A stretch of DNA of 64,000 bases, taken from the NCBI RefSeq assembly GCF_005925325.1, contig NZ_SRMP01000001.1, forward strand, positions 558,001 through 622,000, given 5' to 3'. The notes beneath the pieces were generated by a model that was not told where the DNA came from, did not search any database, and was given only the letters and a program-made list of their open reading frames with translations. The DNA is from Pedobacter helvus (GTDB lineage Bacteria; Bacteroidota; Bacteroidia; Sphingobacteriales; Sphingobacteriaceae). This document shows positions 16,684 through 34,378 of the stretch, one piece after another (position 1 is the first letter of the stretch; each line of letters starts with the position of its first letter). Position numbers and translations under genes: made by a program.

Positions 16684-16710
16684 ATATTCAAAACCAAATC
16701 ATAAATCTTA

Positions 16711-16738
16711 AGTCCCGATGCAAGTCGGGACTTTTTTG
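16711..16738 (+). terminator. Intrinsic terminator of secDF
   Basis: AGTCCCGA (16711-16718) and TCGGGACT (16725-16732) form an 8-bp stem with a 6-base loop, followed by a T run to 16738. It lies 28 bases after the secDF stop. Confidence 0.9.
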
Positions 16739-16740
16739 CT

Positions 16741-20016: not shown

Positions 20017-20028
20017 AAACGATCCATA

Positions 20029-20475
20029 TTACAGAGCTGATATTACAGCATTAGCAGTAGTATCTTTCGTATTTTTTAAAATATATTTATCGATAATATA
20101 TTTTGTGATTGGCTTCAATTGTTTTTTATCATCAACTGGATGCATCCCACTATCTGTAAAAAACTCAGGAATACTATCGGCTCCCATGTACCAAACTCTG
20201 CCGATGTCTTTATAATTGATAGTATCAATCCTACTTATTTTCTCAAACTTCCTTAATCTTTTCTTATCCATAGCAACTACCCTTACAGTTTGAATATCTT
20301 CATTATCACATGAAACGGCTGTAAATCTTTCTCCATTCCAATACATGCATTGATCTTTTGGCCACAATATAGCTCCAATAACCAATATCATTGCTACCAC
20401 CACTCCTACACGAAAGTACCTTTGATTAAACCATAGTATATTTTCAGACGTATTGCTTCCTTTCTTATAATCAAT
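20029..20475 (-). pseudogene. C-terminal half of a frameshifted single-span membrane protein
   Basis: Open frame from ATT 20475 to the stop at 20029 (148 aa); the first GTG is at 20403. It encodes a hydrophilic lead (DYKKGSNTSENILWFNQRYF), one TM helix (about VVVAMILVIGAILW) and a roughly 100-aa outer part beginning PKDQCMYWNGERF. No ATG precedes the TM segment, while the frame of the upstream gene ends exactly here. Removing one A from CTAAATT near 20476 joins the two into a continuous protein of about 250 aa (...LLTWL-IDYKKG...). I therefore read this as the second half of one gene broken by a single-base insertion, a sequencing error, or a site of +1 frameshifting. Confidence 0.6.
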
Positions 20476-20788
20476 TTAGCCAAGTTAGTAAAGTTACCGT
20501 ACTAGGGTTAGGATTTTCTATCTGCCCTTTCAAGTAGTTATTCAGCGGTTTAAACTTCTCTACATCAGTATTTTCTAAAATATCATTAGCTTGTTGTATC
20601 TCAACTCCCGGAACGGCAAAAGATTGCAAGATATTTCTTATCTCTTCATTTGGTCTTGAGGCATAAACCGCAGCGCATTCATTTCTCAATTTTGCAGTAG
20701 TAGGCTCAGCTAAATTATTAGAGAGGCCTCCTATTTTTCTTAGCTTTTTATACTGCTCCAGTACACTTAATTCTTCTTGTTCAGGCAT
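20471..20788 (-). pseudogene. N-terminal half of the same frameshifted gene
   Basis: Starts at ATG 20788 (MPEQEELSVLEQYKKL) and stops at TGA 20471 after 105 aa. It is a helical, acidic cytosolic domain containing LRNECAAVYASRPNEEIRN and NDILENTDVEKFKPLNNYL. The final LLTWLN* runs into the frame of the following ORF, which supplies the membrane span. The layout, a helical cytosolic domain then one TM then a periplasmic domain, resembles that of anti-sigma-type proteins, but no family was recognised. A TACTTTTG box (minus, 20814-20807) lies upstream. Confidence 0.6.
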
Positions 20789-20980
20789 TTTTAAAGATTT
20801 TATCACCAAAAGTAAACGGAATTTTCGGAATACCTATATACGTATTTGGAATCTATCAGAATCTTAGCGGAATCATTCGGATTCCTTCGTTAAAGGCCAT
20901 TTCAACGCTACATCTTTGCTTTCGAAATCATTCAACACTAACAACTTACAAGACTAAAAGTACGAAACTGATTTCAAAAA

Positions 20981-21116
20981 ATGAGTGGAAATCGCGGTAG
21001 TGAAAAACCGGGTTGGGAAGCAGTTAGCAGCTCCCGCGATTGAAGCTCGAAACACTTCCCAAAAATTTCAGAAGGCCTTCTGAATAACCTACAGTAAACC
21101 TAGCGCATGGTGCGCT
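20981..21116 (+). other. Cluster of three hairpins upstream of the small acidic peptide gene
   Basis: AATCGCGG (20990-20997) pairs with CCGCGATT (21034-21041) across a 36-base interior. TCAGAAGGCCTTCTGA (21068-21083) is a perfect 16-base palindrome. AGCGCA - TGG - TGCGCT (21102-21116) is a tight hairpin. A 20-codon frame (20981-21043, MSGNRGSEKPGW...) runs through the first hairpin. This could be a structured leader, a small RNA, or protein-binding DNA. Confidence 0.45.
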
Positions 21117-21149
21117 TGGAACTGCAATTATTCAAATTCTAAATTTTTG
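21116..21149 (+). promoter_or_regulatory. Possible promoter of the small acidic peptide gene
   Basis: TTG (21116-21118), a 21-base spacer, then TAAATTTTTG (21140-21149), a TAnnTTTG-like box with extra T residues. The start codon follows within 6 bases, so the leader would be almost absent. Confidence 0.4.
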
Positions 21150-21154
21150 ACAAA

Positions 21155-21376
21155 ATGTATATTCCTATTTTCATAGCCATCTTAATGGGCTTAATTTCTC
21201 CTGCAAATCATTCAGCAAATTGCAACAGCGGAGGTACCGTATATATTAACAGTAGCAATGGCGAAGGCGATCCTGAAAGCGACCCAGATGGTGATGATGA
21301 CGAAACAGGCATTGGCGGTCCTGGACCTGCTAATCCTGGTGGTGGTTCTGGGCAAAATCCCCCACCAAAACCTTAA
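21155..21376 (+). CDS. Small secreted acidic Gly/Pro-rich peptide
   Basis: 73 aa: a hydrophobic export signal (MYIPIFIAILMGLISPANHS), then a low-complexity mature part with an acidic run (GDPESDPDGDDDETG) and a flexible GGPGPANPGGGSGQNPPPKP end. I do not recognise a family. A strong terminator lies 17 bases after its stop, and the next gene, a sensor kinase with an outward-facing TPR domain, begins after it. That order suggests, but does not prove, a peptide ligand or accessory factor of the kinase. Confidence 0.6.
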   Translation: MYIPIFIAILMGLISPANHSANCNSGGTVYINSSNGEGDPESDPDGDDDETGIGGPGPANPGGGSGQNPPPKP

Positions 21377-21392
21377 TAGAATCCCTCAAGTG

Positions 21393-21420
21393 AAGCAAGG
21401 CGCCAAGTGCCTTGCTTTTT
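21393..21420 (+). terminator. Intrinsic terminator after the small peptide gene
   Basis: AAGCAAGGC (21393-21401) and GCCTTGCTT (21409-21417) make a perfect 9-bp stem with a 7-base loop and a following T run. It separates the peptide gene from the kinase gene. Confidence 0.9.
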
Positions 21421-21468
21421 TAATAAGCGACATAAGGGATACTTCAATTTTATTTAATTTGTTTTTTG

Positions 21469-21476
21469 TAGTTTTG
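21469..21476 (+). promoter_or_regulatory. -7 box for the TPR kinase gene
   Basis: TAGTTTTG is a perfect TAnnTTTG box 16 bases before GTG 21492. It supports that start over the longer frame that opens at 21258 inside the peptide gene. Confidence 0.55.
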
Positions 21477-21491
21477 GGTAAACTCGAAATC

Positions 21492-23150
21492 GTGATACGC
21501 CTCTACATACTTCTTGCAATTGTTTTTTTAATATACTGCAAATCAAACCAACAGAAGAAAAAAGAAAAGGAAGCCAATTCATTTCATGATCAGGCTTATG
21601 CCTACAGAAATGCATACAAAACAGATAGCGCTTTTATTTTCTTTGCAAAAGCTAAAGAACTTTTTCTTCAACGGAAAGACAGTATTGGCGTAGCGAACTG
21701 TTTGGTAAATTCAGCAATTATCTCTACCAATATTGGAGATTACTTCGGCGGACAAGAACTTTCTCTTGACGCACTCTCTTACCTAAATACAGAAAAAAAA
21801 GAAGATCAAGCGTATCTACATTCTAATTATAACAATCTAGCGATAGCGAGCGAGCGTCTTAGAAATTATGAAGAAGCTATCAAATTTTACGATTTAGCCA
21901 TCAAATTTGCTACAGATTCTAGTGCGATTCTACTTTATCTGAATAATAAAGCAAATGCTTATCAAGGGGCAAAGCAATATAAAAATGCTTTAAATATTTA
22001 CAATAAATTATTGCACAGAACCAATAATGACCAGACGGCTTACGCAAGAGTATTATCTAATATAGCAATTACTAAATGGCAATTAAACCAAAATTACAAT
22101 GCTTTACCTGAGTTAAGAAAAGCCTTATACATTCGCCAAAAGGAAAATGATTTATGGGGTTTAAATTCAAGTTACGACTACATAACCGATTATTACGTCA
22201 AACACGATATAGATTCTACGTTACATTACGCGAAGAAAATGTTAGCCAATGCGCAGCAATTAAATAGCGCAGACGATCAGTTATTTGCCCTACAAAAGCT
22301 AATCAAATTCAGTCCCAAACCAGATCGAGACACCTACTTTGAACGCTACCTAACGCTAGACGACAGCTTACAAACTGCTCGAAATTTGGCCAAAAATCGT
22401 TTTGCATTAATCAAATTTGAAACGGAAAAACACAAGTCAGACAACCTAGTCTTGCAGAAACAAAATTCCGAAAAAACGTATCAAATCATCATCATTACAA
22501 CAGTTTCTTTGCTTGTGTTGATATTGGGAGCGTTCTGGTATCGAAAACGACAACAACATCTTAAAATAACAGCTGAGAAAACAATAAAAGAAAATCAGCT
22601 AAGAACTTCGAAAAAAGTACATGATGTGGTTGCCAATGGCCTTTACAGAGTAATGGCAGAGATAGAAAATGAAGATCAGTTAGATAAGGATCGTATTTTA
22701 GATAAAATCGAAGTTATGTACGAAAAATCTCGTGATATCTCTTACGATCAAGAGATGGATAATTTAAATAACTTCCATGAAACCTTAAATCGTTTGTTAA
22801 GCTCTTTCAAATCATCTAATGTTGAGATCAAAATTAAAGGTAATACTAGAGCGCTATGGCGAAAAGTTAGCACAAAGGTGCTATATGAGGTAGAACATAT
22901 TTTACAAGAATTGATGGTTAACATGGCCAAACATAGCCAAGCAACTAGCGTAAGTTTAACATTTGAACATAATCAGCAAGAAATTACCATTCATTATAGA
23001 GATAACGGAGTGGGATTAATAAAAGGTATTGAATTTAAAAATGGATTAACGAATACGGGAACCCGTATAAATAATATTTCGGGCAGTATTACTTTTGACA
23101 CACAAACCGAAAGAGGATTAGCTATTCATATTTCTTTTCCAATTTCCTAA
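21492..23150 (+). CDS. TPR-containing sensor histidine kinase
   Basis: Start set at GTG 21492 (552 aa), which gives a short N-terminal hydrophobic export/anchor segment (LYILLAIVFLIYC). The longer frame to 21258 crosses the peptide gene and its terminator and is rejected. TPR-like repeats fill about 30-290 (YAYRNAYKTDSAFIFFAKAKELF, YEEAIKFYDLAI, YKNALNIYNKLL). A TM helix lies near 331-352, then the phosphoacceptor segment KKVHDVVANGLY with H377 (HisKA_3-like), and an ATPase domain with ELMVNMAKHSQA (N box), DNGVG and GTRINNISG. A response regulator follows 12 bases later. Confidence 0.88.
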   Translation: MIRLYILLAIVFLIYCKSNQQKKKEKEANSFHDQAYAYRNAYKTDSAFIFFAKAKELFLQRKDSIGVANCLVNSAIISTNIGDYFGGQELSLDALSYLNTEKKEDQAYLHSNYNNLAIASERLRNYEEAIKFYDLAIKFATDSSAILLYLNNKANAYQGAKQYKNALNIYNKLLHRTNNDQTAYARVLSNIAITKWQLNQNYNALPELRKALYIRQKENDLWGLNSSYDYITDYYVKHDIDSTLHYAKKMLANAQQLNSADDQLFALQKLIKFSPKPDRDTYFERYLTLDDSLQTARNLAKNRFALIKFETEKHKSDNLVLQKQNSEKTYQIIIITTVSLLVLILGAFWYRKRQQHLKITAEKTIKENQLRTSKKVHDVVANGLYRVMAEIENEDQLDKDRILDKIEVMYEKSRDISYDQEMDNLNNFHETLNRLLSSFKSSNVEIKIKGNTRALWRKVSTKVLYEVEHILQELMVNMAKHSQATSVSLTFEHNQQEITIHYRDNGVGLIKGIEFKNGLTNTGTRINNISGSITFDTQTERGLAIHISFPIS

Positions 23151-23162
23151 AATGTCTATCAT

Positions 23163-23834
23163 ATGTTTCAAAAAGTATTGATCGCAGAAGATCACGAGAC
23201 CATCAACTACTCTATCCAAAAAACTTTGGAAGACCTTGGTATACCTAATCATAGCAAAAACTATGCTTATTACTGCGACGACGCTATCAAACGTATTGAA
23301 AAAGCTTTAAAAGAAGGCGAACCTTACGAGCTACTGATTACAGATTTATCTTTTGAGGAAGATATCCCTAACCAACACATCACTACCGGACAAGATTTAA
23401 TCAAGGCAGCTAGAAAAATACAACCAAATTTAAAAGTATTAGTTTTCTCTATCGAAAACAGAATCAAAGTAGCTCAATCGCTTTTTAAGGATTTAAACAT
23501 AGATGCTTATGTACCCAAGGCTCGTAGAGATGCAAAAGATTTAAAGACAGCAATAGAAACCATCTATCAAGCAAAAAAACATTTATCGCCAAACCTAAAA
23601 AAGGACATCGGAGAAGAAAAATTCTATAAATTTACCAACTTTGACATCATCATTATTAAACTGCTGTCTAATGGTGTATTACAGAAAGAAATCCCTTATC
23701 ATTTACAACAAAAAAACATCAAACCCTCGGGACTTAGCAGCGTAGAAAAGCGTTTAAGCTTAATTAAAACAACTTTAAATATCTTTAGCAACGAACAGCT
23801 CATTGCTTATTGCAAGGACAAAGAGATCATTTGA
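23163..23834 (+). CDS. Response regulator paired with the TPR kinase
   Basis: 223 aa. The receiver domain has acidic residues D10/H11 (LIAEDH) and phosphoacceptor D61 (LLITDLSF), with a conserved Ser (LVFSIEN, about 96) and Lys (YVPKAR, about 119). The C-terminal domain (about 150-215) has a helix-turn-helix-like LLSNGVLQKEIPYHLQQKNIKPSGLSSVEKRL that resembles, but is longer than, the usual LuxR HTH. It presumably activates genes on phosphorylation by the neighbouring kinase. The targets are unknown. Confidence 0.88.
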   Translation: MFQKVLIAEDHETINYSIQKTLEDLGIPNHSKNYAYYCDDAIKRIEKALKEGEPYELLITDLSFEEDIPNQHITTGQDLIKAARKIQPNLKVLVFSIENRIKVAQSLFKDLNIDAYVPKARRDAKDLKTAIETIYQAKKHLSPNLKKDIGEEKFYKFTNFDIIIIKLLSNGVLQKEIPYHLQQKNIKPSGLSSVEKRLSLIKTTLNIFSNEQLIAYCKDKEII

Positions 23835-24044
23835 AGATACCTTGTTAAAAAATAGAACATTTAGCAGCATTTGGCACCTTTACTCATCTACCACGTTGGC
23901 TCACAACGGCTTTTACCTTATAGCCATCATTATATAAAAAACTCACTTTTGCTATTTAGCAAAAGTGGCTAGTTATTAGGAGGCATTTTATTTCAAGTTT
24001 ATTGATATAATCTGCCTAATCTTGAATTTGACTTATTTCTTATT

Positions 24045-24115
24045 TACTCGGTATTCACTCGCTACTCACTCGGTATTTACTCGTTATAAACACGTTTATT
24101 AAATGAGTAAATACC
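24045..24115. repeat. ACTCGGTATTCACTCG short repeats ending in an inverted pair
   Basis: Variants of TATTTACTCGGTATTCACTCG recur back to back (TTTACTCGG, TTCACTCG, TACTCACTCGG, TTTACTCG). The last copy GGTATTTACTC (24072-24082) pairs perfectly with GAGTAAATACC (24105-24115) across a 22-base loop. The rest of 23835-24290 shows no gene; AATTACGG / CCGTAATT (24252-24271) is a further small hairpin. Confidence 0.65.
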
Positions 24116-24290
24116 TAGTAACTAATAAGTAAACTAATTGTGAAACAATAGGCAATCTACCACTATAGTAAACTTGTAAAATAGTAGTGCTATATCCCGC
24201 TACTTATATCACCTCTGTACGATCAAACATCTTTTTAAAGAAAAGTCCTGCAATTACGGTTTCCCGTAATTTACTGCCTTTTACTCTTTG

Positions 24291-24298
24291 TAGTTTTG
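24291..24298 (+). promoter_or_regulatory. -7 box for the HsdR_N cassette
   Basis: TAGTTTTG, a perfect TAnnTTTG match, lies 20 bases before the start at 24318. A hairpin AATTACGG-TTTC-CCGTAATT sits just upstream (24252-24271) and could be an operator. Confidence 0.5.
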
Positions 24299-24317
24299 AT
24301 TTATAAACCAACAATCG

Positions 24318-25388
24318 ATGGATTTAAAATTAAAACTAGAACAGCTTCACCAAAGGGTAATACACCTCAAAGATCAGATCAATACTGAAGAAGCTACTAA
24401 AAACGCATTTGTCATGCCCTTTATTCAAATTTTGGGCTATGATATTTTTAACCCCACAGAAGTAGTTCCGGAACATATATGTGATATTGGCACCAAGAAG
24501 GGCGAAAAAGTAGACTACATCATTAAAAGAGATAACGACCCGATCCTCATCATCGAATGTAAGCATTGGAAAGAAAATGCGGACGCTCACAACTCTCAAT
24601 TACATCGTTATTTCCATGTGTCTAAAGCCCGCTTTGGTGTACTCACTAATGGTGTTGTCTACAATTTCTATACTGATTTGGAGCAACCCAATATTATGGA
24701 TGAAAAGCCTTTTTTAACCATCAATATTGAAGATCTAAAGGATAATGCGATAAAAGTATTGGAAAGCTTTACCAAAAAAGATTACCATCTGGAAACTATC
24801 CTGGACTCTGCCGAAGCTTTAAAATACATTAAGGCCATCAGAAAAGAGTTTGAGAAAGAAATTGAGCATCCTTCTGACGAATTGGTAAAATTATTGGTAA
24901 ACCGCTTTTTCGACAAGCCTTTAATAGCTAGTAGAATGCTCACATTTAAAGAATATGCAAAGAAAGCACTAGCTATTTCGATTAATGAATCTATCAGTTA
25001 TCGTTTAAAATCGGCCCTACACATCAATGAAAGCATAGAAACAAGAACTGAAGATCAAAATGTAAATCCGGTGGATGACAACAATGATGCGCCTAAAATT
25101 ATCACTACTGAAGAAGAGCTTGAAGGTTTCCAGATTGTAAAGGCCATCCTACGTGAAAAACTCCCCGCAGATAGAATTGCGGCTAGAGATACACAATCTT
25201 ATTTCGGTGTACTGTTAGATGACAACAACCGAAAGCCTCTCTGCAGATTACACTTTAATAGCAGTAATAAATATATCGAGCTATTTCACAACGGCAAAGA
25301 TGCTGGCGAGAAAGTCTTACTAAGCAGTTTGGATGAGATTTATGGGTTTAGGGAGCAGTTGCATGGGGCTAGTCAAAACTACCAATAA
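24318..25388 (+). CDS. HsdR_N-type PD-(D/E)XK nuclease-like protein
   Basis: 356 aa. The N-terminal half matches the type I restriction HsdR N-terminal fold: TEEATKNAFVMPFIQILGYD, then D66 (KVDYIIKRDNDP), E80 and K82 (LIIECKHW) forming the PD-(D/E)XK nuclease triad, and GVLTNGVVYNFYTDL. The rest (about 180-356) is a helical stretch plus a small beta-rich tail ending FNSSNKYIELFHNG. There is no helicase domain and no hsdM or hsdS nearby, so it is a stand-alone nuclease-like protein. Its stop overlaps the next start (TAATG), making it the first gene of a coupled operon. Confidence 0.8.
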   Translation: MDLKLKLEQLHQRVIHLKDQINTEEATKNAFVMPFIQILGYDIFNPTEVVPEHICDIGTKKGEKVDYIIKRDNDPILIIECKHWKENADAHNSQLHRYFHVSKARFGVLTNGVVYNFYTDLEQPNIMDEKPFLTINIEDLKDNAIKVLESFTKKDYHLETILDSAEALKYIKAIRKEFEKEIEHPSDELVKLLVNRFFDKPLIASRMLTFKEYAKKALAISINESISYRLKSALHINESIETRTEDQNVNPVDDNNDAPKIITTEEELEGFQIVKAILREKLPADRIAARDTQSYFGVLLDDNNRKPLCRLHFNSSNKYIELFHNGKDAGEKVLLSSLDEIYGFREQLHGASQNYQ

Positions 25389-25765
25389 TGAAAGCTTTTT
25401 TTATTTTTTGCGGAACCTGTTGCTTCTTCGCAATTGTCAATTGGCCAATAGAATATTATACTTTTCTGAGAATAATTGTTTCATTAGGTTCAATAGTAGC
25501 TGTCTATTACCTTTTTACTCAAAAGACATATTTATTGGCAATTATTTTCATTTTAATATTTATTCTGTTTAACCCCATACTACCTATTTATCTCTATAAA
25601 AAAAGCTTTTGGCTTCCATTTGATATCCTAACTGGTGTATTATTTTATCTACTGACATTTTTTAATAAAAAGAAAAAAATAATTACAAACAATCCAGCTA
25701 TAAAAGCTCCTTTAAAGAGCTATACACGAGATCGAATTATTTCACCTAAAAAACTAAAGCTATAA
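25388..25765 (+). CDS. Small integral membrane protein, DUF6804-like
   Basis: 125 aa with four likely TM helices: FFIFCGTCCFFAIVNW, YTFLRIIVSLGSIVAVYYLF, YLLAIIFILIFILFNPILPIYL and FDILTGVLFYLLTFF. A basic cytosolic tail (KKKKIITNN) follows. The FNPILPIYLYKKSFW segment looks like the DUF6804 pattern as I remember it. It is translationally coupled to the nuclease gene (shared TAATG) and lies 1 base from the next gene. Function unknown. Confidence 0.7.
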   Translation: MKAFFIFCGTCCFFAIVNWPIEYYTFLRIIVSLGSIVAVYYLFTQKTYLLAIIFILIFILFNPILPIYLYKKSFWLPFDILTGVLFYLLTFFNKKKKIITNNPAIKAPLKSYTRDRIISPKKLKL

Positions 25766-25766
25766 T

Positions 25767-26174
25767 ATGGAAACTATCCAAATATCAGAGAATTTAAAAG
25801 CTCACTTTCTTAGACTTTATCAATTGGCAATCTGCGATGATAATTTCAGTTCATTAGAACTAAAAATGCTCTACAAATTTGCCGAAGAAAGAGGTGTAAC
25901 CTCCAAAAGTCTTGATGAAATCTTACTTAAACCTATCGACTCAAAAAATATCATCCCCGATTTATTAGAACATAAAATAGACTATTTGTATGACCTTACC
26001 TTAATGATTTGGGCAGATGAGAAAGTAGATGAAAATGAACGTTCCGCTTTAGAAAAATACATCAAACTATTCGGCTTTTTAGAAGAAAATACGGTTGCAA
26101 TCGCCGATTATTTCTTGGAAGCTGTAAAAAAAGGAAAATCCAAATATGAAATCATTAATGAACTTCAAAACTAA
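25767..26174 (+). CDS. All-helical TerB-like protein
   Basis: 135 aa, acidic, predicted all-helical. LRLYQLAICDDNFSSLELKMLYKFAEERG and LTLMIWADEKVDENERSALEKYIKLFGF each carry the (A/D)-D-x-x-(V/F)-x-x-x-E pattern seen in the paired helical hairpins of TerB-like (tellurite-resistance-associated) domains, which bind metal in some families. The membership is by motif only. It sits between two membrane-protein genes with gaps of 1 and 5 bases, so it is very likely co-expressed with them. Confidence 0.6.
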   Translation: METIQISENLKAHFLRLYQLAICDDNFSSLELKMLYKFAEERGVTSKSLDEILLKPIDSKNIIPDLLEHKIDYLYDLTLMIWADEKVDENERSALEKYIKLFGFLEENTVAIADYFLEAVKKGKSKYEIINELQN

Positions 26175-26179
26175 TTGTC

Positions 26180-27499
26180 ATGACTACGCAAATAAAAAAC
26201 ATTTTTCGTTTAAAATCCATCTTACCTACCCAAACTGAAAAACCAGAAAATAATACAGAGGAAGGAGAAGAAGCAAGAAGAAGAACTTATCATGAAACAG
26301 GTTTTAGAGATAGCTCTAGAAATATGGGAACAGCTCAAGTGCTATCAATTTGTTTAGATGCTATATATGCCAAATTCCAAAATGAGGAGAAATTACAAAT
26401 AGATAAACAACGTCTAGCCAAAGAACCCTACATTAATGAGCAAAAAAACAAAGAGACGGAAATCAAAGCTCTTATCGTAAGTAGGGAGAATAAAGAAGAA
26501 CAAATCAATAGGCTAAATGATAAAATAAAAGGAATTAAAGAAAATGTAGAAACTTTACAATTTGAGATTAATGACTTACCAAGAGATCCAGAAAAATACC
26601 ATGTGAAAGCTGAAAAAGGAGCTACAACTAAGTTTTGGGTTGGTCTTATCATTCTTGTTCCAATCACTCTTTATTTATTTACCTTCTATATTTCAACATC
26701 TTATTCTGCTTTCTTTAAATCCTTTGATCCTGACAGTAACCTTATGGCAAATGTACTAGATCCTAAAGCGTTTGAAAAAGCATGGTTAGATGGGCCTTTA
26801 GAAGGCGCATTCGTTATGCTGATTCCTTTTGTCTTTTTAGGCTTGGGTTACTTGATACATATGTTCAGTGAAAACAAGAATATTGTTAACTATTTTAAGA
26901 TTGCAATTTTATTCATCACCACTTTCATATTCGATGCAATATTAGCCTATCAAATAGAAGATAAAATTTATGAGTTAAATAAAACGTTCGACTCTGCTCC
27001 TTTCGATTTATCCATAGCATTTACCAAAATCCAATTTTGGGGAATCATCTTTGCTGGTTTTGTAGTTTATGTAATTTGGGGGCTCGTTTTCGATTTCATT
27101 ATGAAAGAACATAGGGAAAAAGATAAGATTAAGCATCAACAATATAAACGCCAACAAGATATTCTTATTCATAAAGAGAAAATCAATGATTTCAACAAAG
27201 AAAAAGAGATTCTGATCAAAGAATTAGAGAATATTAGAGAACTGATTGCAAAGGCTCAAGGAAGGGTTTTGGAACTACAGCGAATAATTGATGCAGTAAT
27301 CATCCCTACAAAAGAATACGCATTGTATGCTTCAGAATATGTGCAGGGATGGGTCACGTTTATAACCGAAAAACTGTTTGTTTCGAGAACTGAAAACCAG
27401 AATTTAATTAAAGAGTGTATGGATATATACAACACTCATTGTGGAAATGTAGGTGCTAATGCGGATTCTCAAAATTCAGTTTATTTATCAGTTGTTTAA
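26180..27499 (+). CDS. Four-span membrane protein with flanking coiled coils
   Basis: 439 aa, not recognised. An Arg-rich N-terminus (EEARRRTYHETGFRDSSRN) precedes a long coiled coil (about 70-145, repeated EQINRLNDKIKGIKEN). Four TM helices follow (about 155-177, 210-228, 238-257, 285-305), and then a second coiled coil (about 310-385, HKEKINDFNKEKEILIKELENI). Both coiled coils should be cytosolic. The design suggests a scaffold or a sensor rather than an enzyme. Its start lies 5 bases after the TerB-like gene. Confidence 0.7.
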   Translation: MTTQIKNIFRLKSILPTQTEKPENNTEEGEEARRRTYHETGFRDSSRNMGTAQVLSICLDAIYAKFQNEEKLQIDKQRLAKEPYINEQKNKETEIKALIVSRENKEEQINRLNDKIKGIKENVETLQFEINDLPRDPEKYHVKAEKGATTKFWVGLIILVPITLYLFTFYISTSYSAFFKSFDPDSNLMANVLDPKAFEKAWLDGPLEGAFVMLIPFVFLGLGYLIHMFSENKNIVNYFKIAILFITTFIFDAILAYQIEDKIYELNKTFDSAPFDLSIAFTKIQFWGIIFAGFVVYVIWGLVFDFIMKEHREKDKIKHQQYKRQQDILIHKEKINDFNKEKEILIKELENIRELIAKAQGRVLELQRIIDAVIIPTKEYALYASEYVQGWVTFITEKLFVSRTENQNLIKECMDIYNTHCGNVGANADSQNSVYLSVV

Positions 27500-27621
27500 A
27501 TTTATAGAGCCCCCAAGTGAGAGGCTCTCCTATCTTTAGCTCACCGTTTACAATTGGTATACCAACTAAACATTATCCAACATAAATTCAACATTTTCAA
27601 ACACCCAGCAATGTTAATCAA

Positions 27622-28470
27622 ATGAAAATCAAACCATTAAACCTATTATTAATTAGCTTTCTTGTAACTAGTTTTACTTTGGCTAAAGGACAAAAATCTT
27701 CCAACAATCTAAATCTCAGCTTACTTTTAGATCTGTCTGATCGAATAGACCCTAAAAAATACCCTAGTCTCTATCAAAGAGATTTACAATACATAAAATC
27801 TGTACAAAAAGCTTTTACCAATCACATTAAGGGGAAAAAAATTATTCAGTTGAATGATCAAATGCAAGTTTTTTTTGATCCAGAGCCCCAAAACCCTACA
27901 ATAAATAGTTTGAGCCAACAATTAAAGGTGAATTTCAACAAGAAGTCTGGAAAAAACGAAATCAATAGCTTAGACAAAACCTATTCAGATATTCCAGCGA
28001 AAATATATCAATCTGCCATAAAAGACAAGACCTACTTAGGATCTGATATCTGGAGATTCTTTAAAAACAATGTGAAAGATTATTGCATCAAAGACGATTA
28101 CCGTAACATCCTGGTAATCATCACTGATGGTTATATGTATCATCAAAACAGTAAATTCACAGAAAAAAATAAAAGCTCGTACATCACTCCTGCATTTATC
28201 CAGGCAAAAAAATTAACAACCTCCACCTACAGACAACTTATCGAAAAGGGAGGCTTAGGTTTCATTACTGCCACCGAAAATTTACAAAACTTGGAAATTA
28301 TTGTCCTAGGAATTAACCCATCTAAAAACAACCCTTACGAAAGTGATGTAATTAATCAATATTGGGCTGATTGGCTTAAGTCAATGGGCGTTAAAAAATA
28401 TCATCTTAAAAACAATGATTTACCTACAAACCTAGAGCCTGTTATACTTAAAATTATTTCAAGAAAATAA
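27622..28470 (+). CDS. Secreted VWA-like protein
   Basis: 282 aa with a signal peptide (MKIKPLNLLLISFLVTSFTL, cleavage near AKG). The mature protein starts with a beta strand and metal-site-like LLLDLSDRID and later has ILVIITDGYMYH, together resembling the MIDAS elements (DxSxx and a downstream Asp) of a von Willebrand factor A fold. The first motif is DLSDR, not canonical DxSxS, so metal binding is uncertain. It follows the coiled-coil membrane gene by 122 bp, where AGAGCC / GGCTCT (27506-27528) can form a weak hairpin. Confidence 0.65.
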   Translation: MKIKPLNLLLISFLVTSFTLAKGQKSSNNLNLSLLLDLSDRIDPKKYPSLYQRDLQYIKSVQKAFTNHIKGKKIIQLNDQMQVFFDPEPQNPTINSLSQQLKVNFNKKSGKNEINSLDKTYSDIPAKIYQSAIKDKTYLGSDIWRFFKNNVKDYCIKDDYRNILVIITDGYMYHQNSKFTEKNKSSYITPAFIQAKKLTTSTYRQLIEKGGLGFITATENLQNLEIIVLGINPSKNNPYESDVINQYWADWLKSMGVKKYHLKNNDLPTNLEPVILKIISRK

Positions 28471-28507
28471 GTTTATTTGTTTAAAATTATCTCCAAAAAA
28501 TTAGCTA

Positions 28508-28714
28508 ATGAAACCTCTCCTACTCTCATTTCTTCTTATCATCCTCAACCTGCAAACCGATAAAACCGTTTATATTTGCGACAGCGGCAAGGCACCTCGT
28601 TATCATTACAAATCTAACTGCCGAGGTCTTAGCAACTGCAACTATAAAACCGTAAAAACTACCTTAACAAAAGCAAAAAAAGAAGGCAAGACCTTGTGTA
28701 AATGGGAAGACTAA
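28508..28714 (+). CDS. Small exported Cys-containing protein beside the nuclease
   Basis: 68 aa: a signal sequence (MKPLLLSFLLIILNLQT) then VYICDSGKAPRYHYKSNCRGLSNC and a C-terminal EGKTLCKWED. The (T)G-x-x-YHxxxCxxL ... A-x-x-x-G-x-x-x-C layout recurs in small exported proteins and in domains attached to secreted thermonucleases. Four cysteines plus a His could bind zinc or form disulfides. Its stop overlaps the start of the thermonuclease gene by 13 bases, so the two are coupled. Confidence 0.75.
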   Translation: MKPLLLSFLLIILNLQTDKTVYICDSGKAPRYHYKSNCRGLSNCNYKTVKTTLTKAKKEGKTLCKWED

Positions 28715-29217
28715 CACTACTACTTTTACTACCTACATGGATTTGGGCTCAAGAAAAACCAACAGCCAAACAACTTCGACACCAAACTTTTAGCGCTAAA
28801 GTTATTCGGATTATAGACGGTGATACCATGGAAATCCTTTACCGAAACACGCCCATTAAAATACGTTTAGCACATATTGATTGTCCGGAGAAAAGAAGTA
28901 AACAACCTTTTGGTACACAAGCAAAAACCGCCTTATCAAATCTATGCTTTGGTCAGCAAGTTACCTTGACCAGTCAAAACTCCGACCGTTATGGGCGACT
29001 GATTGCCGTAATTACCAACTGCAAGAAGCAGGTTGTAAACCAAGAAATGATCAAATTGGGGATGGCCTGGCATTTCACTAAATATTCTAATGATAAAACC
29101 TATGCAAAATTAGAACAAGAAGCCCGTAAAAAGAGAATAGGTCTTTGGAGAGAAAACAATCCTACACCACCTTGGAATTGGAGAAAACCAAAATCAATAA
29201 GGAATCTTAAGAGCTAG
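28702..29217 (+). CDS. Secreted thermonuclease (SNase family)
   Basis: 171 aa with a short signal peptide (MGRLTLLLLLPTWIWA, cleavage near AQ). The SNase OB fold is clear: VIRIIDGDTMEI with D41, R55 in IKIRLAHIDCPE with E63, and R99 in DRYGR. These correspond to the catalytic Arg, Glu and Arg of staphylococcal nuclease, so Ca2+-dependent phosphodiester cleavage outside the cytosol is expected. LGMAWHFTKYS and GLWRENNPTPPWNWR complete the domain. It overlaps the small Cys protein gene by 13 bases. Confidence 0.92.
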   Translation: MGRLTLLLLLPTWIWAQEKPTAKQLRHQTFSAKVIRIIDGDTMEILYRNTPIKIRLAHIDCPEKRSKQPFGTQAKTALSNLCFGQQVTLTSQNSDRYGRLIAVITNCKKQVVNQEMIKLGMAWHFTKYSNDKTYAKLEQEARKKRIGLWRENNPTPPWNWRKPKSIRNLKS

Positions 29218-29252
29218 TTAATCAAAACTTAGTGTTCTTTGTGTCTTAGTGG

Positions 29253-29816
29253 TTACTTCAAATCATGCTCTTTCAAAGCCCTGTTCAAACTCCTTAAAGT
29301 AATCCCTAAGTAAGCGGCCATATCTTCCTTACTGATTTTCATCCCCTGCTTATCTTGTAATTCTAACAGCTTGGCCAGACCGTGTTCTACTGTGTATAAC
29401 TGCTGAAACGAAGCCCGACTGCTGGTATTGATGATACGTTCCGCCAATTCGGCTAATAGAATTTTATTTAAGACCAAGTCTTTCGCTAAAAGCTCTTTAA
29501 AGGTCGAAGCTGGAATAACGTAAACTTGCAAAACCGTTAGTGCAGCCACATTGCAGAGGCAATCTATCTGACGGATCACCTCTATCTCGCCCAAAACTTG
29601 TCCCTTACTCATAAATTCTAGAATGTAATCCTTGCCATTTTCTTCTAGAAAAAAACATTTGGCAATGCCTTCTTTAATCACAAAAACACGATGGTTCTTT
29701 TCTCCCTGGCGAAGTAATAAACTATCTTTTTCAAAGCTCTGCAAGCTTATTTCAGGTCGATGGCTTTGGTAAAGCGTATCAACATAAGATAAAAATTCAG
29801 TGTTGGTTCTCAGCAT
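29253..29816 (-). CDS. Crp/Fnr-family transcriptional regulator
   Basis: 187 aa. An N-terminal cyclic-nucleotide-binding-like beta roll (about 25-115, LLRQGEKNHRVFVIKEGIAKCFF, GQVLGEIEVI) leads to the long dimer helix and a C-terminal HTH (ISKEDMAAYLGITLRSLNRALKEHDL, about 161-186). There is no FNR-type N-terminal Cys cluster. It is divergent from a HAD hydrolase gene, with a perfect 12-base palindrome in the 73-base gap, so auto- and cross-regulation are plausible. Confidence 0.9.
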   Translation of the reverse strand: MLRTNTEFLSYVDTLYQSHRPEISLQSFEKDSLLLRQGEKNHRVFVIKEGIAKCFFLEENGKDYILEFMSKGQVLGEIEVIRQIDCLCNVAALTVLQVYVIPASTFKELLAKDLVLNKILLAELAERIINTSSRASFQQLYTVEHGLAKLLELQDKQGMKISKEDMAAYLGITLRSLNRALKEHDLK

Positions 29817-29826
29817 AACTTTTTTG

Positions 29827-29838
29827 GGACAATTGTCC
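29827..29838. promoter_or_regulatory. GGACAATTGTCC palindrome, candidate Crp/Fnr operator
   Basis: A perfect 12-base palindrome 11 bases upstream of the Crp/Fnr start and 52 bases upstream of the HAD start, in the shared divergent control region. Its size and position suit a homodimeric regulator. Confidence 0.5.
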
Positions 29839-29889
29839 TTTTTTTGTGCAGGTTTTTATTTCACCTTTGCAACATTAACAAAGATAACG

Positions 29890-30576
29890 ATGAAGAACCA
29901 AATCAAAACCATTGCCTTTGATGCCGATGATACTTTATGGGAAAACGAGACTTATTTCCGTGAAGCAGAGCTAGAATTTGCTCAGTTATTTCCGCATTTA
30001 CCAAAAGAAAACGTAATTAAAGATTTGTTCGACATCGAAATGAAAAACCTGAAAATTTACGGTTATGGCATTAAAGGTTTCATGCTTTGTATGGTAGAAA
30101 CAGCTGCCAAATTAAGTGGCAGTAAGGTGGATAGCGGTTTAATTAACCAAATATTTGATATCGGCCATAGATTATTGCAAAAACCCATCATACTTTTGGA
30201 TGGTATAGAAGAAACCTTACAGCACCTATATGGTAAATACAGGTTGGTAATGGCAACTAAAGGTGATTTATTAGACCAAGAACGGAAATTGGAAAAATCT
30301 GGCTTAGCCAAATACTTTCATCATATCGAAGTGATGAGCGATAAACAGCCTCGTCATTATGAGAAATTGATTAACCATTTAGATTGTAAGCCAGAAAACT
30401 TTTTGATGGTGGGTAACTCTCGTCGTTCGGATATTGTACCAGTATTAGCTTTAAACGCTTATGCAGTAGAAGTTCCCTACCACACCACTTGGATTCACGA
30501 ATTGCATGAGGAACCCATCGATCATCCTAACTTTGTTTCGGTAACGAGTATTGATCAAATTATTCCTTTGTTGTAA
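29890..30576 (+). CDS. HAD-family hydrolase
   Basis: 228 aa from ATG 29890 (MKNQIKTIAFDADDTLWEN). The frame extends to 29800, but that would run into the Crp/Fnr leader and the palindrome. HAD motif I is D11-x-D13-DT, motif II VMATKGD (Thr/Ser), motif III around K and motif IV MVGNSRRSDIVPVLAL. The helical cap between motifs I and II suggests a small phosphorylated substrate, as in phosphoglycolate phosphatase-like proteins. Specificity is not predictable. Confidence 0.88.
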   Translation: MKNQIKTIAFDADDTLWENETYFREAELEFAQLFPHLPKENVIKDLFDIEMKNLKIYGYGIKGFMLCMVETAAKLSGSKVDSGLINQIFDIGHRLLQKPIILLDGIEETLQHLYGKYRLVMATKGDLLDQERKLEKSGLAKYFHHIEVMSDKQPRHYEKLINHLDCKPENFLMVGNSRRSDIVPVLALNAYAVEVPYHTTWIHELHEEPIDHPNFVSVTSIDQIIPLL

Positions 30577-30638
30577 TCTTCCGCTCATAGTGCGTCATCC
30601 CAGATTTAATCTGGCAAAACAGATAACCGAAGTAACAA

Positions 30639-30675
30639 ACACCCCGCCCGCTGTGGTGGTCGAAGACCGGGGTGT
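30639..30675. repeat. ACACCCCG / CGGGGTGT hairpin
   Basis: Eight-base perfect stem (30639-30646 with 30668-30675) and a 21-base loop in the gap between the HAD and CAT-like genes. No T run follows, so it may be a weak terminator for the HAD gene or a repeat. Confidence 0.45.
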
Positions 30676-30710
30676 CTAACTAGCTGAATAAAAAGCTAAC
30701 TTTAATAAAA

Positions 30711-31334
30711 ATGAAAAAAATCAACATAGAAACTTGGAAACGTAGAGATCATTTCAAACTCTTCAGTCAGTTTGAAGAACCATTTTTTGGTATGGTAGTA
30801 AATATAGACTGCACAATAGCCTACGCAAATGCCAAAGCTGCCAGCAAATCTTTCTTTCTACACTACCTATACCGAGCTTTAAAAGCAGCAAATTCAGTTG
30901 AAGAATTCCGTTACAGAATTTTAAATGAAGACATTATCCTTCATCAACAAGCAAGCATTTCTACTACAATTAACCGCCCTAATGGTACTTTCGGCTTTGG
31001 CTACTTCGATTACAACACCGACGAAAATATTTTTATCGCCGATGCTCAAAAAGCAATAGAAGTAGTGCAAACTACCGAAGGCTTGATACCATCGCAGCCA
31101 GGTGGTAGCGAGATACATTTCTCGGCTATTCCTTGGGTAGATTTCACTTCCCTATCTCATGCCCGCAGTTTTACTTTTCCAGATAGCTGCCCTAAAATAT
31201 CTTTCGGTAAATTAACAGAAAAAAACGGTGTAAAAAGCATGCCTATTTCTGTTCATGTTCATCATGGTTTGGCTGATGGCTTTCATGTAGGAAAATTTGT
31301 AGAGCAATTTCAGAAGCTGATGAACAAAGCGTAA
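30711..31334 (+). CDS. CatA-like (chloramphenicol acetyltransferase fold) protein
   Basis: 207 aa, close to the usual CAT length. The N-terminal INIETWKRRDHFKLF matches the family start, SAIPWVDFTSLSH lies mid-protein, and the catalytic HHGLADGFHVG is at 184-194 with the expected His and Asp. CAT enzymes acetylate the 3-hydroxyl of chloramphenicol using acetyl-CoA. Many Bacteroidota carry chromosomal relatives whose substrate is unknown, so resistance should not be assumed. It is flanked by unrelated genes and shows no mobile-element context. Confidence 0.8.
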   Translation: MKKINIETWKRRDHFKLFSQFEEPFFGMVVNIDCTIAYANAKAASKSFFLHYLYRALKAANSVEEFRYRILNEDIILHQQASISTTINRPNGTFGFGYFDYNTDENIFIADAQKAIEVVQTTEGLIPSQPGGSEIHFSAIPWVDFTSLSHARSFTFPDSCPKISFGKLTEKNGVKSMPISVHVHHGLADGFHVGKFVEQFQKLMNKA

Positions 31335-31368
31335 TTGTCATTCTTTTGAAAGAATAAACGCAACAATA

Positions 31369-31397
31369 TTGCAATTAAAAAATATACTGTACTTTCG
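31369..31397 (+). promoter_or_regulatory. Promoter of the thioredoxin-reductase-like gene
   Basis: TTG (31369-31371), an 18-base spacer and TACTTTCG (31390-31397), one base from TAnnTTTG. The start ATG 31419 follows 21 bases later. This supports that start over the TTG at 31404. Confidence 0.6.
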
Positions 31398-31418
31398 TTA
31401 AACTTGATTGAACAGCAT

Positions 31419-32336
31419 ATGATAAATCAAAAAGAATACGATGTAATCATTATTGGCGGAAGTTACGCAGGACTATCTGCAGCAATGGCTTTGGGCAGAG
31501 CTTTACGAAAAGTTTTAATAATTGACGGTGGCAATCGCTGTAATAAACAAACACCGCATTCGCATAACTTCCTCACGCAAGATGGTAAAACACCAAAGGA
31601 AATTTCGGAATTAGCCAAATCGCAGGTTGTTAGTTATGATACCATCAGCTTTTTAACTGATATTGCAATTAAAGGAGAAAAAAAAGCCAACGGATTTGAG
31701 ATTACAACACAGAACGGATCAATTTTTCAAGGCAGAAAATTAATTTTTGGTACTGGAGTTAAAGACCTAATGCCCAATATCGAGGGTTTTGCTGAATGCT
31801 GGGGCATCAGCGTAATTCACTGTCCATATTGCCACGGTTACGAAGTTCGCCATCAAAAAACGGGTTTGTTTGCCAATGGCGATATCGCTTACGAATTTGG
31901 AAAGCTGCTCTGGAACTGGACAAAAGACCTTACCATATACACTAATGGAAAATCGGACTTGAGTGTTGAACAAACAAAAACCTTAGCTAGCAGGAACATC
32001 AGCATTGTAGAAAAAGAAATCGTAAAAATCGATCACGAAAATGGGCAAATCCAAGCGTTGATTTTTCTGGATGGCAGTGTCCAAAAGCTAGATGCCTTAT
32101 ATGCTAAAATACCTTTTATCCAACACAGTGATATTCCAAAAAGTTTAGGCTGTGAAATCAACGAAATGGGAATGCTAAAGGTAGATATGATACAAAAGAC
32201 ATCTGTAGATGGTGTTTTTGCCGCTGGCGATAGCACTAATTTGATGCGCTCTGTAGCCAATGCTGTTTATGGTGGTAATATGGCGGGAGCCGCAGTTAGT
32301 AAAGAGTTGATTGCTGAGGATTTTGAGACAGCCTAA
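31419..32336 (+). CDS. Thioredoxin reductase-like FAD/NAD(P) oxidoreductase
   Basis: 305 aa from ATG 31419. An N-terminal FAD motif VIIIGGSYAGLSAAMALGRA, a redox-active C135-PY-C138 in VIHCPYCHGYE, and a C-terminal VFAAGDSTNLMRSVANAVYGG are all present. The NADP domain lies between, but the usual GxGxxA is replaced by LFANGDIAYEFG, which may alter cofactor binding. Small single-gene homologues of this type are flavin-dependent disulfide oxidoreductases. The partner is unknown because no thioredoxin gene is adjacent. Confidence 0.88.
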   Translation: MINQKEYDVIIIGGSYAGLSAAMALGRALRKVLIIDGGNRCNKQTPHSHNFLTQDGKTPKEISELAKSQVVSYDTISFLTDIAIKGEKKANGFEITTQNGSIFQGRKLIFGTGVKDLMPNIEGFAECWGISVIHCPYCHGYEVRHQKTGLFANGDIAYEFGKLLWNWTKDLTIYTNGKSDLSVEQTKTLASRNISIVEKEIVKIDHENGQIQALIFLDGSVQKLDALYAKIPFIQHSDIPKSLGCEINEMGMLKVDMIQKTSVDGVFAAGDSTNLMRSVANAVYGGNMAGAAVSKELIAEDFETA

Positions 32337-32601
32337 TGACTAAACTGTTGTTTTGCATCTTCTCTAGCCCTAGCAATAAATCTTCGTTAACCTAAATTCG
32401 GCCTTGGCCTGTTCGGGAGGCACAAAAAAGCATAGCTACTGCCTTTAACAGAACAGGGCGCAGCCGTGGCTTTTTTTGCTTACTTTTTTCAGCTAAAGGA
32501 AAAAAGTTTGTCCGCGAAGCGACTGACATAAAAGAAAACACCTCACTTTTAAGATTCCGAAATAAATTCGGAATGACGAGCTATAAAATATAAATCAAAA
32601 A
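32337..32601. repeat. Repeat-rich gap with several hairpins
   Basis: No gene is seen. The stretch includes a CTGTTCGGGAGGCACAAAAA segment, an ACTTTTTTCAGCTAAAGGAAAAAAGT inverted pair (arms ACTTTTTTC / GAAAAAAGT, about 32482-32508), and ATTCCGA / TCGGAAT (32554-32574) followed by GACG. Its patchwork look matches other intergenic mosaics in this window. Confidence 0.45.
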
Positions 32602-33084
32602 TTATTCTGTCCTCCCGTCATTCACCACATCCTTAATCATCTTAACCATCTTTTGGCGATGTAACTTCTTAGCTGCATCAATAGAATGTGATTTGTGGAT
32701 ATCAGCATCCTCTTCTGCTAGCTTAGCCAAAGTAGCGTAGAACTTATGAAATTGATCAAGCTCCTCTTCTGTTAAATCTTCAATATCTACCATTCTATTA
32801 CTCGCTTTTTCATGAGAAGCTATGAGTTCGTTCAGTTTTAACTGAATGGCTTTTCCATCTTTATTTTGTGCTTTTTGTATTAAAAAAACCATTAAAAAAG
32901 TAATGATGGTTGTACCGGTGTTGATGACCAACTGCCAAGTTTCCGAATAGTTAAATATTGGCCCAGAAACTGCCCAAATCACTACAATTGCAACTGCAGC
33001 AATAAAAGCTGGAGAACTTCCTGTAAATCTTGTAGCTGCATTTGAAAATCTTTCAAACAAACTGATTTTATTTTTTTTGCTCAT
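32602..33084 (-). CDS. Low-affinity iron permease family protein
   Basis: 160 aa. Two TM helices (FIAAVAIVVIWAVSGPIFNY and LVINTGTTIITFLMVFLIQ) are followed by QKAQNKDGKAIQLKLNELI, the hallmark of the low-affinity Fe/Cu permease family (Iron_permease). A cytosolic helical tail rich in Glu, Asp and Lys follows. Bacterial members are small and their transport activity is rarely tested. It is a single-gene unit on the minus strand. Confidence 0.88.
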   Translation of the reverse strand: MSKKNKISLFERFSNAATRFTGSSPAFIAAVAIVVIWAVSGPIFNYSETWQLVINTGTTIITFLMVFLIQKAQNKDGKAIQLKLNELIASHEKASNRMVDIEDLTEEELDQFHKFYATLAKLAEEDADIHKSHSIDAAKKLHRQKMVKMIKDVVNDGRTE

Positions 33085-33246
33085 GCTTTAAATTTTAGTT
33101 TAGAAAATTACGGAATTTATATAGCGATGCACCGCAAATCGTCATATAAAAAATTTAAATTAATGCCTGATTGATATTTATTCACTGCGTAGCTTTCCGC
33201 TTCGCTGCAGGAAGTATCAGTATTAAGCTTAACCTGTAATAGAAAC

Positions 33247-33279
33247 AAAAAGGCCATCCCAAAATTTCGGGATGGCCTT
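33247..33279 (-). terminator. Intrinsic terminator of fbaA
   Basis: AAGGCCATCCC (33250-33260) and GGGATGGCCTT (33269-33279) form a perfect 11-bp stem with an 8-base loop. The A run at 33247-33251 gives the U tract on the minus strand, just after the fbaA stop. Confidence 0.92.
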
Positions 33280-33298
33280 ACTATAGAGATCTTAAATC

Positions 33299-34378
33299 TT
33301 ATAATTTATCGTTCGCGTTAACGCAATTCAAATCTTCGAAAGCTACTTTTAAACGAGCAACAAAAGCTTCTTCCGATTTACGTAACCAAACACGTGGATC
33401 GTAGAATTTCTTGTTCGGTTTATCTTCACCCTCTGGGTTACCAATTTGACCTTGCAAATAAGCTTCGTTCTTTTTGTAGAAACCTAAAATACCATCCCAA
33501 AAAGCCCATTGCAAATCTGTATCGATGTTCATTTTGATAGCTCCGTAAGAAATAGCTTCTCTAATTTCTTCTTGCGAAGAACCAGAACCACCGTGGAATA
33601 CGAAGTTGATTGGCTTCTCAGCAGTTAAGCTATATTTCTCTTTGATGAAATCTTGAGAGTTTTTCAAAATAATTGGTTGTAATTTCACGTTACCTGGTTT
33701 ATAAACACCATGTACGTTACCAAAAGCAGCAGCAACCGTAAACTGATCGCTCACTTTGCTTAATTCTTCGTAAGCGTAAGCAACTTCACTTGGTTGTGTA
33801 TATAATTTAGAGCTATCTACATCGCTGTTATCTACACCATCTTCCTCACCACCAGTCACACCTAGCTCAATTTCAATCGTCATACCTAGCTTTTTCATGC
33901 GCTCTAAGTATTTAGCAGAAATTTCGATATTTTCTTCAATTGGCTCTTCAGAAAGATCCAACATGTGCGATGAGAACAAAGGTTTACCAGTTTCAGCAAA
34001 GAATTTTTCTCCGTGGTCTAACAAACCATCAATCCAAGGTAACAACTTTTTAGCCGCGTGGTCAGTGTGCAAAATAACTGCAACACCATAGTGCTCTGCT
34101 AATAAATGTACGTGTTTAGCAGCAGATACTGCTCCCAAAACACAAGCTTGTAGGTTATCGTTATTTAAGGTTTTACCAGCATAAAACTGTGCGCCACCAT
34201 TAGACAATTGGATGATTACCGGCGAATTAACCGCCTTAGCAGTTTCCATTACCGCATTAATCGTATTGGTTCCTGTTACGTTTACTGCTGGAAGTGCAAA
34301 TTGATGTTTTTTAGCCTGCTCAAACAATTCTTGTACGGCAGCCCCATGGATTACGCCTTTGTAGCCTTTTAAACTCAT
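33299..34378 (-). CDS. fbaA: Class II fructose-bisphosphate aldolase
   Basis: 359 aa, the E. coli FbaA-type length. The zinc and substrate residues are in VILHTDHAAKKLLPW (His, Asp), the IELGVTGGEEDGVDNS loop, AAFGNVHGVYKPGNV (His), NFVFHGGSGSS (His) and KMNIDTDLQWAFWDGI. It splits fructose 1,6-bisphosphate to dihydroxyacetone phosphate and glyceraldehyde 3-phosphate in glycolysis, and it supplies the substrate of MgsA encoded elsewhere in the window. Well-defined promoter and terminator frame the gene as a single unit. Confidence 0.97.
   Translation of the reverse strand: MSLKGYKGVIHGAAVQELFEQAKKHQFALPAVNVTGTNTINAVMETAKAVNSPVIIQLSNGGAQFYAGKTLNNDNLQACVLGAVSAAKHVHLLAEHYGVAVILHTDHAAKKLLPWIDGLLDHGEKFFAETGKPLFSSHMLDLSEEPIEENIEISAKYLERMKKLGMTIEIELGVTGGEEDGVDNSDVDSSKLYTQPSEVAYAYEELSKVSDQFTVAAAFGNVHGVYKPGNVKLQPIILKNSQDFIKEKYSLTAEKPINFVFHGGSGSSQEEIREAISYGAIKMNIDTDLQWAFWDGILGFYKKNEAYLQGQIGNPEGEDKPNKKFYDPRVWLRKSEEAFVARLKVAFEDLNCVNANDKL

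Follow-up and report, generated by a model that had tools for sequence, protein, structure and literature searches.

The stretch of Pedobacter helvus DNA analysed here (assembly GCF_005925325.1, contig NZ_SRMP01000001.1, positions 558,001 to 622,000 of the forward strand; 64,000 nucleotides, hereafter the window) carries a run of seven same-strand genes centred on a four-span coiled-coil membrane protein (CC) and an exported VWA protein. They are preceded by a regulatory head comprising a conserved structured RNA, a small peptide gene, a histidine kinase and a response regulator (Table 1). A sequence-only reading had described the seven genes as an unrecognised cassette. The genes are real, and the searches of Pfam, PADLOC, NCBIfam and PHROG gave no result that presents the set as a single system (ten window proteins were scanned with Pfam and the seven cassette proteins with PADLOC, both down to an expectation value, E, of 1). 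However, the boundary was drawn too narrowly, leaving out the RNA, peptide, kinase and regulator. Literature searches found no paper on this locus and none naming DUF6804 or PF20619. As judged by sequence comparison, CC and VWA form the constant pair of the window's module, and a single chromosomal slot, behind one regulatory head, takes alternative envelope modules.

Table 1. Features of the locus in window coordinates (ORF, open reading frame; aa, amino acids; MIDAS, metal ion-dependent adhesion site).
Feature	Position	Strand	Remarks
TMreg, related to a ~300 aa single-span protein	20029..20809	-	Two ORFs, 20029-20403 and 20471-20809; divergent from the other genes
Conserved structured RNA	20911..21085	+	175 bases, before the peptide gene; profile, covariation, genome matches
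RNA helix A	20991-21000 with 21031-21040		
RNA helix B	21013-21020 with 21055-21062		Crosses helix A
RNA terminal palindrome	21069-21082		
RNA alternative hairpin	20995-20998 with 21007-21010		
Small peptide gene	21155..21376	+	73 aa; hydrophobic start, Gly/Pro-rich tail
TPR histidine kinase	21492..23150	+	TPR and HATPase_c; 552 aa from GTG 21492
Response regulator	23163..23834	+	Response_reg E 5e-6, under cut-off; precedes CC in 77/78 loci
11-bp direct repeat array, ACTCG core	24041..24095	+	Just upstream of HsdR_N; single place in genome
HsdR_N, PD-(D/E)XK nuclease	24318..25388	+	HSDR_N E 7e-14; phrog_4225 E 2e-122; D and ExK in 80/80 relatives
DUF6804 small membrane protein, four spans	25388..25765	+	Family match; hydropathy
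TerB-like helical protein	25767..26174	+	TerB E 1e-4; 327 relatives
CC, four-span membrane protein	26180..27499	+	Coiled coils on both sides of the spans, probably cytosolic
Exported VWA protein with MIDAS motif	27622..28470	+	Fold and motif
Small Cys protein, optional	28508..28714	+	ORF; 16/76 loci
Exported SNase, optional	28702..29217	+	SNase E 2e-26; 16/76 loci

Relatives of CC are numerous (1773 among 7622 candidates at E 0.001), and 257 CC loci turned up in one scan of named genomes. The counts given here use the best 80 of the 257, mostly from Chryseobacterium and Pedobacter but also from Elizabethkingia, Epilithonimonas, Tenacibaculum and a few bins; smaller denominators are the loci whose flank permits the test. 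VWA lies directly after CC on the same strand in 80/80 loci, DUF6804 is upstream of CC in 78/79 and HsdR_N in 68/78, kinase and regulator are each upstream in 77/78, and the TerB-like gene lies directly upstream in 64/79. This order spans several genera and two families, and the cassette is common to several soil and water bacteria. As the order of DUF6804, TerB-like, CC and VWA is kept in other genera and families, the possibility that the homologues are merely scattered fails for these four. The original seven-gene membership thus holds for them and loosens at the edges: HsdR_N is also found scattered, and the Cys and SNase genes are optional, following in 16/76 loci each, in Pedobacter. That separate short operons lie together by chance is very unlikely and already disfavoured: HsdR_N, Cys and SNase do occur apart, but the near-constant company of CC, VWA, DUF6804, kinase and regulator across genera and families, and the clean borders of the exchange unit described below, speak against it.

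The VWA fold and MIDAS motif were confirmed in the exported protein, HsdR_N has the HSDR_N domain with catalytic D and ExK, and PADLOC matches the SNase to C3a212 (E 6e-15) and, weakly, the TerB-like protein to PDC-S48 (E 8e-4). Full-length relatives of HsdR_N, with up to 52% identity, occur in 18 phage records from varied hosts. The TerB match of the window protein reaches 22.9 bits vs a Pfam cut-off of 24.4; some relatives carry PF05099. Ter gene sets combine a TerB domain and a VWA protein with TerC/TerD-type partners. The cassette has a VWA protein and a weakly TerB-like one, but its VWA protein is exported, no TerC/TerD-type protein was found among the ten window proteins scanned, and the TerB-like gene is missing from 15/79 loci and from the exchanged module of a close relative (below). 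The proposed resemblance to a ter-type stress system, of which the weak TerB-like domain is the sole sign, was rejected as extremely improbable.

Among 121 genomes of the window's family, CC is found in 13 and VWA in 12, with the pair adjacent in 11; the two CC-only genomes have 77-residue partial matches, and in the VWA-only genome (G203, locus L095) a phospholipase D (PLD)-fused CC adjoins VWA. Across the phylum, CC occurs in 12/148 genomes, or in 28/395 with a wider profile whose weakest hits are partial matches. In a quick tree of 50 CC proteins, in which long branches were flagged, three Elizabethkingia and 18 Pedobacter proteins group with that of the window (Shimodaira-Hasegawa-like approximate likelihood ratio test, 99), apart from Chryseobacterium; this grouping of Elizabethkingia with Pedobacter suggests transfer of CC between families.

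An exchange of modules is seen in genome G247 (L093), one of the further loci, with variant modules or distant pairs, that were hand-picked from profile matches in family and phylum genomes. Aligned with window positions 16001-33562, L093 yields seven pieces of 75-90% nucleotide identity separated by six unaligned gaps. Five of these are <0.65 kb and include the TMreg region and the stretch of the 11-bp array; in the sixth, of 3.1 kb, window positions 25370-28506 are swapped for L093 9732-12892, and the swapped stretch begins where HsdR_N ends and stops where the Cys gene starts. The replacement, which has no TerB-like gene, encodes a CC preceded by a fused PLD domain (PLDc_2, E 2e-25) and a second protein with DLSSR and TDG motifs and a lipobox assigned by eye; although unnamed by Pfam, it is related to the VWA partners of other CCs (E 3e-10 for L105, 7e-11 for L095). 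The PLD-fused CCs are a family of their own, as 119/120 listed relatives carry PLDc_2. The catalytic His of the PLD domain is Asn in 73 of the 120 relatives and His in 43 (three have no motif and one is an off-target pattern match). Catalysis is therefore doubtful, the idea of the fused domain as a DNA cutter is weakened, and it may bind rather than cut. Behind the same head, L094, L114, L124 and L129 encode HsdR_N, a protein that by eye looks HNH-like and a membrane protein with a DUF4407 coiled coil (E 1e-40); the last two fill an analogous slot. In L096 (10350-14914) the genes behind the head encode a VWA_2 and a Tubulin_2-like protein, along with a small membrane protein and an uncharacterised 429-aa protein. 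The head also occurs without any of these modules, in L113, L115-L121, L123, L126-L128 and L130-L132.

Part of this head is the conserved structured RNA. A profile built from 20911-21085 matches in 102/120 loci, and some of the 18 misses are truncated or distant loci. In an alignment of 52 rows (the window and 51 of the 102 matching loci), the long-range helix shows compensating changes, one pair being C-G in 19 rows, A-U in 16, U-A in 7 and G-U in 4, and it is crossed by a near-invariant GGGAAG/CTTCCC helix, forming a pseudoknot. With the terminal palindrome included, 93.5% of cells pair and 14 pairs change on both sides; both-side changes number 111 cells vs 41 when shuffled, and 0/500 shuffles reach any of five measures. 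Shifting the partner by 1-3 columns lowers pairing to 48-59%. The G-U intermediates favour an RNA over paired DNA sites. Covariation analysis also supports a short hairpin built on the same CGG, and a switch of the RNA between two folds is therefore possible; RNAalifold chose the short hairpin together with the crossing partner helix, the covariation term being small. The terminal palindrome was set aside as a plain terminator: palindromic symmetry at its centre is kept in 48/52 rows, and a T-run follows it in few of them, which makes a DNA dyad or a kissing loop as likely.

Rfam gave a single match in window positions 20000-30000 (E 0.91), elsewhere than the RNA, and four matches in 12 relatives (E 0.005-0.24), far below gathering scores and none at the RNA. 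A covariance model located the RNA at 32 places in 31 of the 121 family genomes, with TMreg within 2 kb in 31/32 and the regulator within 5 kb in 31/32. The 148 phylum genomes contain 11 such places, spread over 10 genomes, and a TMreg match lies next to each (tables compared by reading). Conversely, 8/39 TMreg places are without an RNA match. The RNA is also present in loci L163-L168, beside TMreg and the peptide-kinase-regulator set. Relatives of TMreg occur in 66 loci; the profile matches the window in two pieces, with stops within the N-terminal piece, and the gene looks broken here, being split over two ORFs where relatives have intact copies.

The peptide and the kinase may form a signalling pair. 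Peptides were chosen from upstream regions by a composition score, which was positive in 70/74 regions (the control covered 74 of 92 such loci), compared with 3/74 on the reverse strand, 0/74 in downstream DNA and 0/74 in shuffled DNA that preserves base composition only. The pooled ratio of non-synonymous to synonymous change (pN/pS) is 0.31, from 85 close, non-independent pairs, so the peptide gene is coding. Two tandem peptide-like ORFs precede the kinase in G247 (L093:5637-6030). Although the listed kinase ORF starts at 21258, comparison with relatives makes the GTG at 21492 the likely start. Eight kinase relatives, compared for their N-termini and spans, have starts that by eye resemble lipoprotein signals, and 7/8 have an inner span before the kinase part; the TPRs are thus probably periplasmic. 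Regulator ORFs number 91 in 78 loci, and an apparent second regulator lies in a kinase-regulator gap of ~790 bp in L045, L051, L058, L059 and other Chryseobacterium loci.

Distant relatives make plausible the link to defence that the sequence-only reading raised. Three genomes outside the class carry the CC-VWA pair without the two-component head and among defence loci. In G009 (L105), Csx20 lies directly before CC and is itself preceded by ShosA (E 4e-48) and a ShosT-like gene; in G011 (L106) the order is CC, VWA, an uncharacterised gene and Csx20 (the Csx20 matches have E 2e-37 and 2e-23, respectively), with PglX ~10 kb and BrxC ~15 kb from Csx20 and, on the same contig, an array with seven or more repeat copies. 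In G137 (L107, L182), genes for a CARF-PDDEXK protein (E 2e-48) and an NE0113 CARF protein (E 7e-69) adjoin CC-VWA; RT-Cas1 (E 7e-108) is a few kb on, and Csm5, Csm4 and Cas10 (E 3e-87) of a type III-A system lie within ~17 kb. Csx20, according to an excerpt of the published account, breaks down cyclic tetra-adenylate (cA4; PMC12409355).

These neighbours could mean that CC-VWA is fundamentally an ancillary type III CRISPR effector of the membrane, gated by the cyclic nucleotide that Csx20 removes, with the two-component loci derived and still nucleotide-responsive. The adjacency of Csx20 in two loci and of CARF genes in a third, Cas10 at ~15 kb from the pair in G137 and the degradation of cA4 by Csx20 fit this idea. 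It is nevertheless distinctly unlikely: there are just three such loci, with no background rate; no CARF, SAVED or known cyclic oligoadenylate-binding domain is found in CC or VWA to E 1 (Pfam, PADLOC), though either may have a ligand site of a kind not yet described; and neither a nucleotide cyclase nor any CRISPR gene was recognised among the window proteins scanned. The link to cas10, CARF or ring nuclease genes is present in L105, L106 and L107/L182 and was not seen at the window or among the few tested neighbours of the G330, G367 and G174 pairs, of which that of G367 adjoins dnaN.

The reading preferred here, held at a probability of roughly 0.5, is that this is a conflict locus under two-component control, with phages or other incoming DNA as its most likely targets, and that it encodes an inducible envelope-linked defence module. 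Defence is proposed because distant relatives of the pair sit among CRISPR and other virus-defence genes, and an envelope-linked module because nuclease partners may be coupled to an envelope complex and work as in Zorya or SNIPE. The exported VWA protein and CC would form one complex, acting with cytosolic partners such as HsdR_N. An envelope disturbance, such as DNA injection, would be passed by CC through its spans to the two cytosolic coiled coils, which would hold or gate the partners: the TerB-like adaptor and HsdR_N nuclease in the window, and in other alleles the fused PLD domain, or the HNH-like protein with a DUF4407 coiled coil. The peptide would be exported and sensed by the periplasmic TPRs of the kinase, and the RNA would tune expression of peptide, kinase and regulator, so that a signal turns the locus on. 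In Pedobacter, SNase and the Cys protein may add an exported DNA-degrading layer.

Excerpts of the published accounts allow comparison with several known systems, and the plan appears to resemble Zorya or SNIPE without belonging to either. Zorya is a complex of the inner membrane that has a periplasmic part and a long tail in the cytosol and is tied to a nuclease effector (PMC11890865). A membrane complex of this build, linked to a nuclease, is proposed here too, but with a VWA protein in place of the peptidoglycan-binding ZorB, with HsdR_N, PLD or HNH-like partners and with two-component control. The PADLOC scan of the seven proteins matched none of the ZorA/ZorB and ZorC/ZorD/ZorE models to E 1. 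The SNIPE domains are GIY-YIG and DUF4041, neither of which is among the Pfam matches of the seven proteins to E 1. In the available account, SNIPE is an anti-phage nuclease at the membrane where DNA enters (PMC13190303); a nuclease at that site is demonstrated for SNIPE and proposed for the cassette, but SNIPE is constitutively localised, whereas the cassette comprises several genes under a regulator.

The type III CRISPR membrane effectors Cam1, Csx23, Cam2 and Cam3 (PMC11229360, excerpted) are likewise membrane proteins, and the three distant CC-VWA pairs lie near Csx20, CARF or Cas10 genes; however, CC, whose partner is an exported VWA protein, has no CARF domain by sequence. Makarova and Koonin's FtsZl1-VWA operons, predicted to remodel membranes in the excerpted text (PMC2875224), also combine VWA and membrane proteins, and variant L096 has VWA_2 and a Tubulin_2-like protein, but no tubulin-like protein is found among the window proteins scanned. 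TssNQOPR of the type VI secretion system subtype iii is, as far as the excerpt describes it, a Bacteroidota membrane complex whose TssR is a periplasmic VWA-containing lipoprotein. It was set aside as the identity of the cassette, since TssN has five spans and a globular domain and TssR has ~790 residues (PMC10781749); no Tss protein was found among the ten window proteins scanned.

Several results weigh against a conflict locus. HsdR_N is present in 38/121 family genomes vs 13 for CC, and the TerB-like gene is missing from the loci noted above. CC has no match in a phage collection and one weak match in plasmids, so a status as plasmid or phage cargo was rejected; ~40/80 loci have one right flank in common, as expected of an inherited chromosomal locus. 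The predicted CC model (predicted template modelling score 0.47) has no PDB match at E 0.001, and fold-search matches were generic helical, with none at that threshold in PDB or BFVD. The Asn substitutions in the PLD domain add to this. PADLOC finds nothing among tested neighbours of the other distant pairs (two for G330, two for G367, one for G174). Closer to the window, the flanks of L093-L132 gave 215 candidates of at least 200 aa, of which 126 were picked and 21 locus-end or module proteins dropped. The remaining 105 proteins matched 87 PADLOC families at 1e-10 (a raw count with no background rate) and showed no clear defence island or enrichment. Among the 25 of 87 families listed, the commonest was mad3, in 3 proteins, followed by Cas1 and SoFic in 2 each, and the idea that the near loci are defence islands was set aside. 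The earlier interpretation as a whole is partly supported.

The chief rival is somewhat unlikely: that the locus serves the cell's own regulated response to envelope stress or extracellular DNA and is not immunity. The kinase would sense the envelope or cell density, VWA and CC would stabilise or remodel the envelope, SNase would digest DNA for food or biofilm turnover, and HsdR_N would limit entering DNA. Two-component control at nearly every locus, the exported SNase and Cys proteins in Pedobacter, the common right flank, as for an inherited housekeeping locus, and the resemblance of the L096 variant to predicted membrane-remodelling operons (PMC2875224, excerpted) all suit this rival. The patchy spread in family and phylum (13/121 and 28/395 genomes), the whole-module swap and the defence neighbours of the distant pairs are more typical of conflict systems.

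If the locus is indeed an inducible defence module, CC-VWA would be an effector pair that none of the four family libraries describes as a system, and a single chromosomal slot behind one regulatory head would be filled anew with different effector modules. The new RNA element and the peptide-kinase pair would be directly testable, Bacteroidota immunity would be linked to two-component signalling, and type III CRISPR loci would seem to have a further membrane effector. A bolder form of the proposal is unlikely: signal-controlled, perhaps density-dependent, Bacteroidota immunity in which the RNA, together with an exported peptide that the periplasmic TPRs of the kinase sense, governs whether one among several interchangeable envelope-nuclease modules comes into use, with CC-VWA a new class of envelope effector also used by type III CRISPR.

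Some loci carry additional genes. Chryseobacterium and Elizabethkingia loci insert bPH-SHOCT, TM2 and SH3 genes between HsdR_N and DUF6804 (L036:6320-7163, L051:6946-7161, L017:6673-7203), and in seven loci HsdR_N is followed by a 423-aa protein without a Pfam match, by eye TerB- and PH-like (L020:5607-6878). The 11-bp array of the window was rejected as a binding site common to all loci, as exact ACTCG arrays of 11-bp period are absent from related loci and the array has a single place in its own genome. Arrays of the same period with a TTACC core lie downstream of the cargo in two Pedobacter-type loci (L095:5792 and L038:12797).

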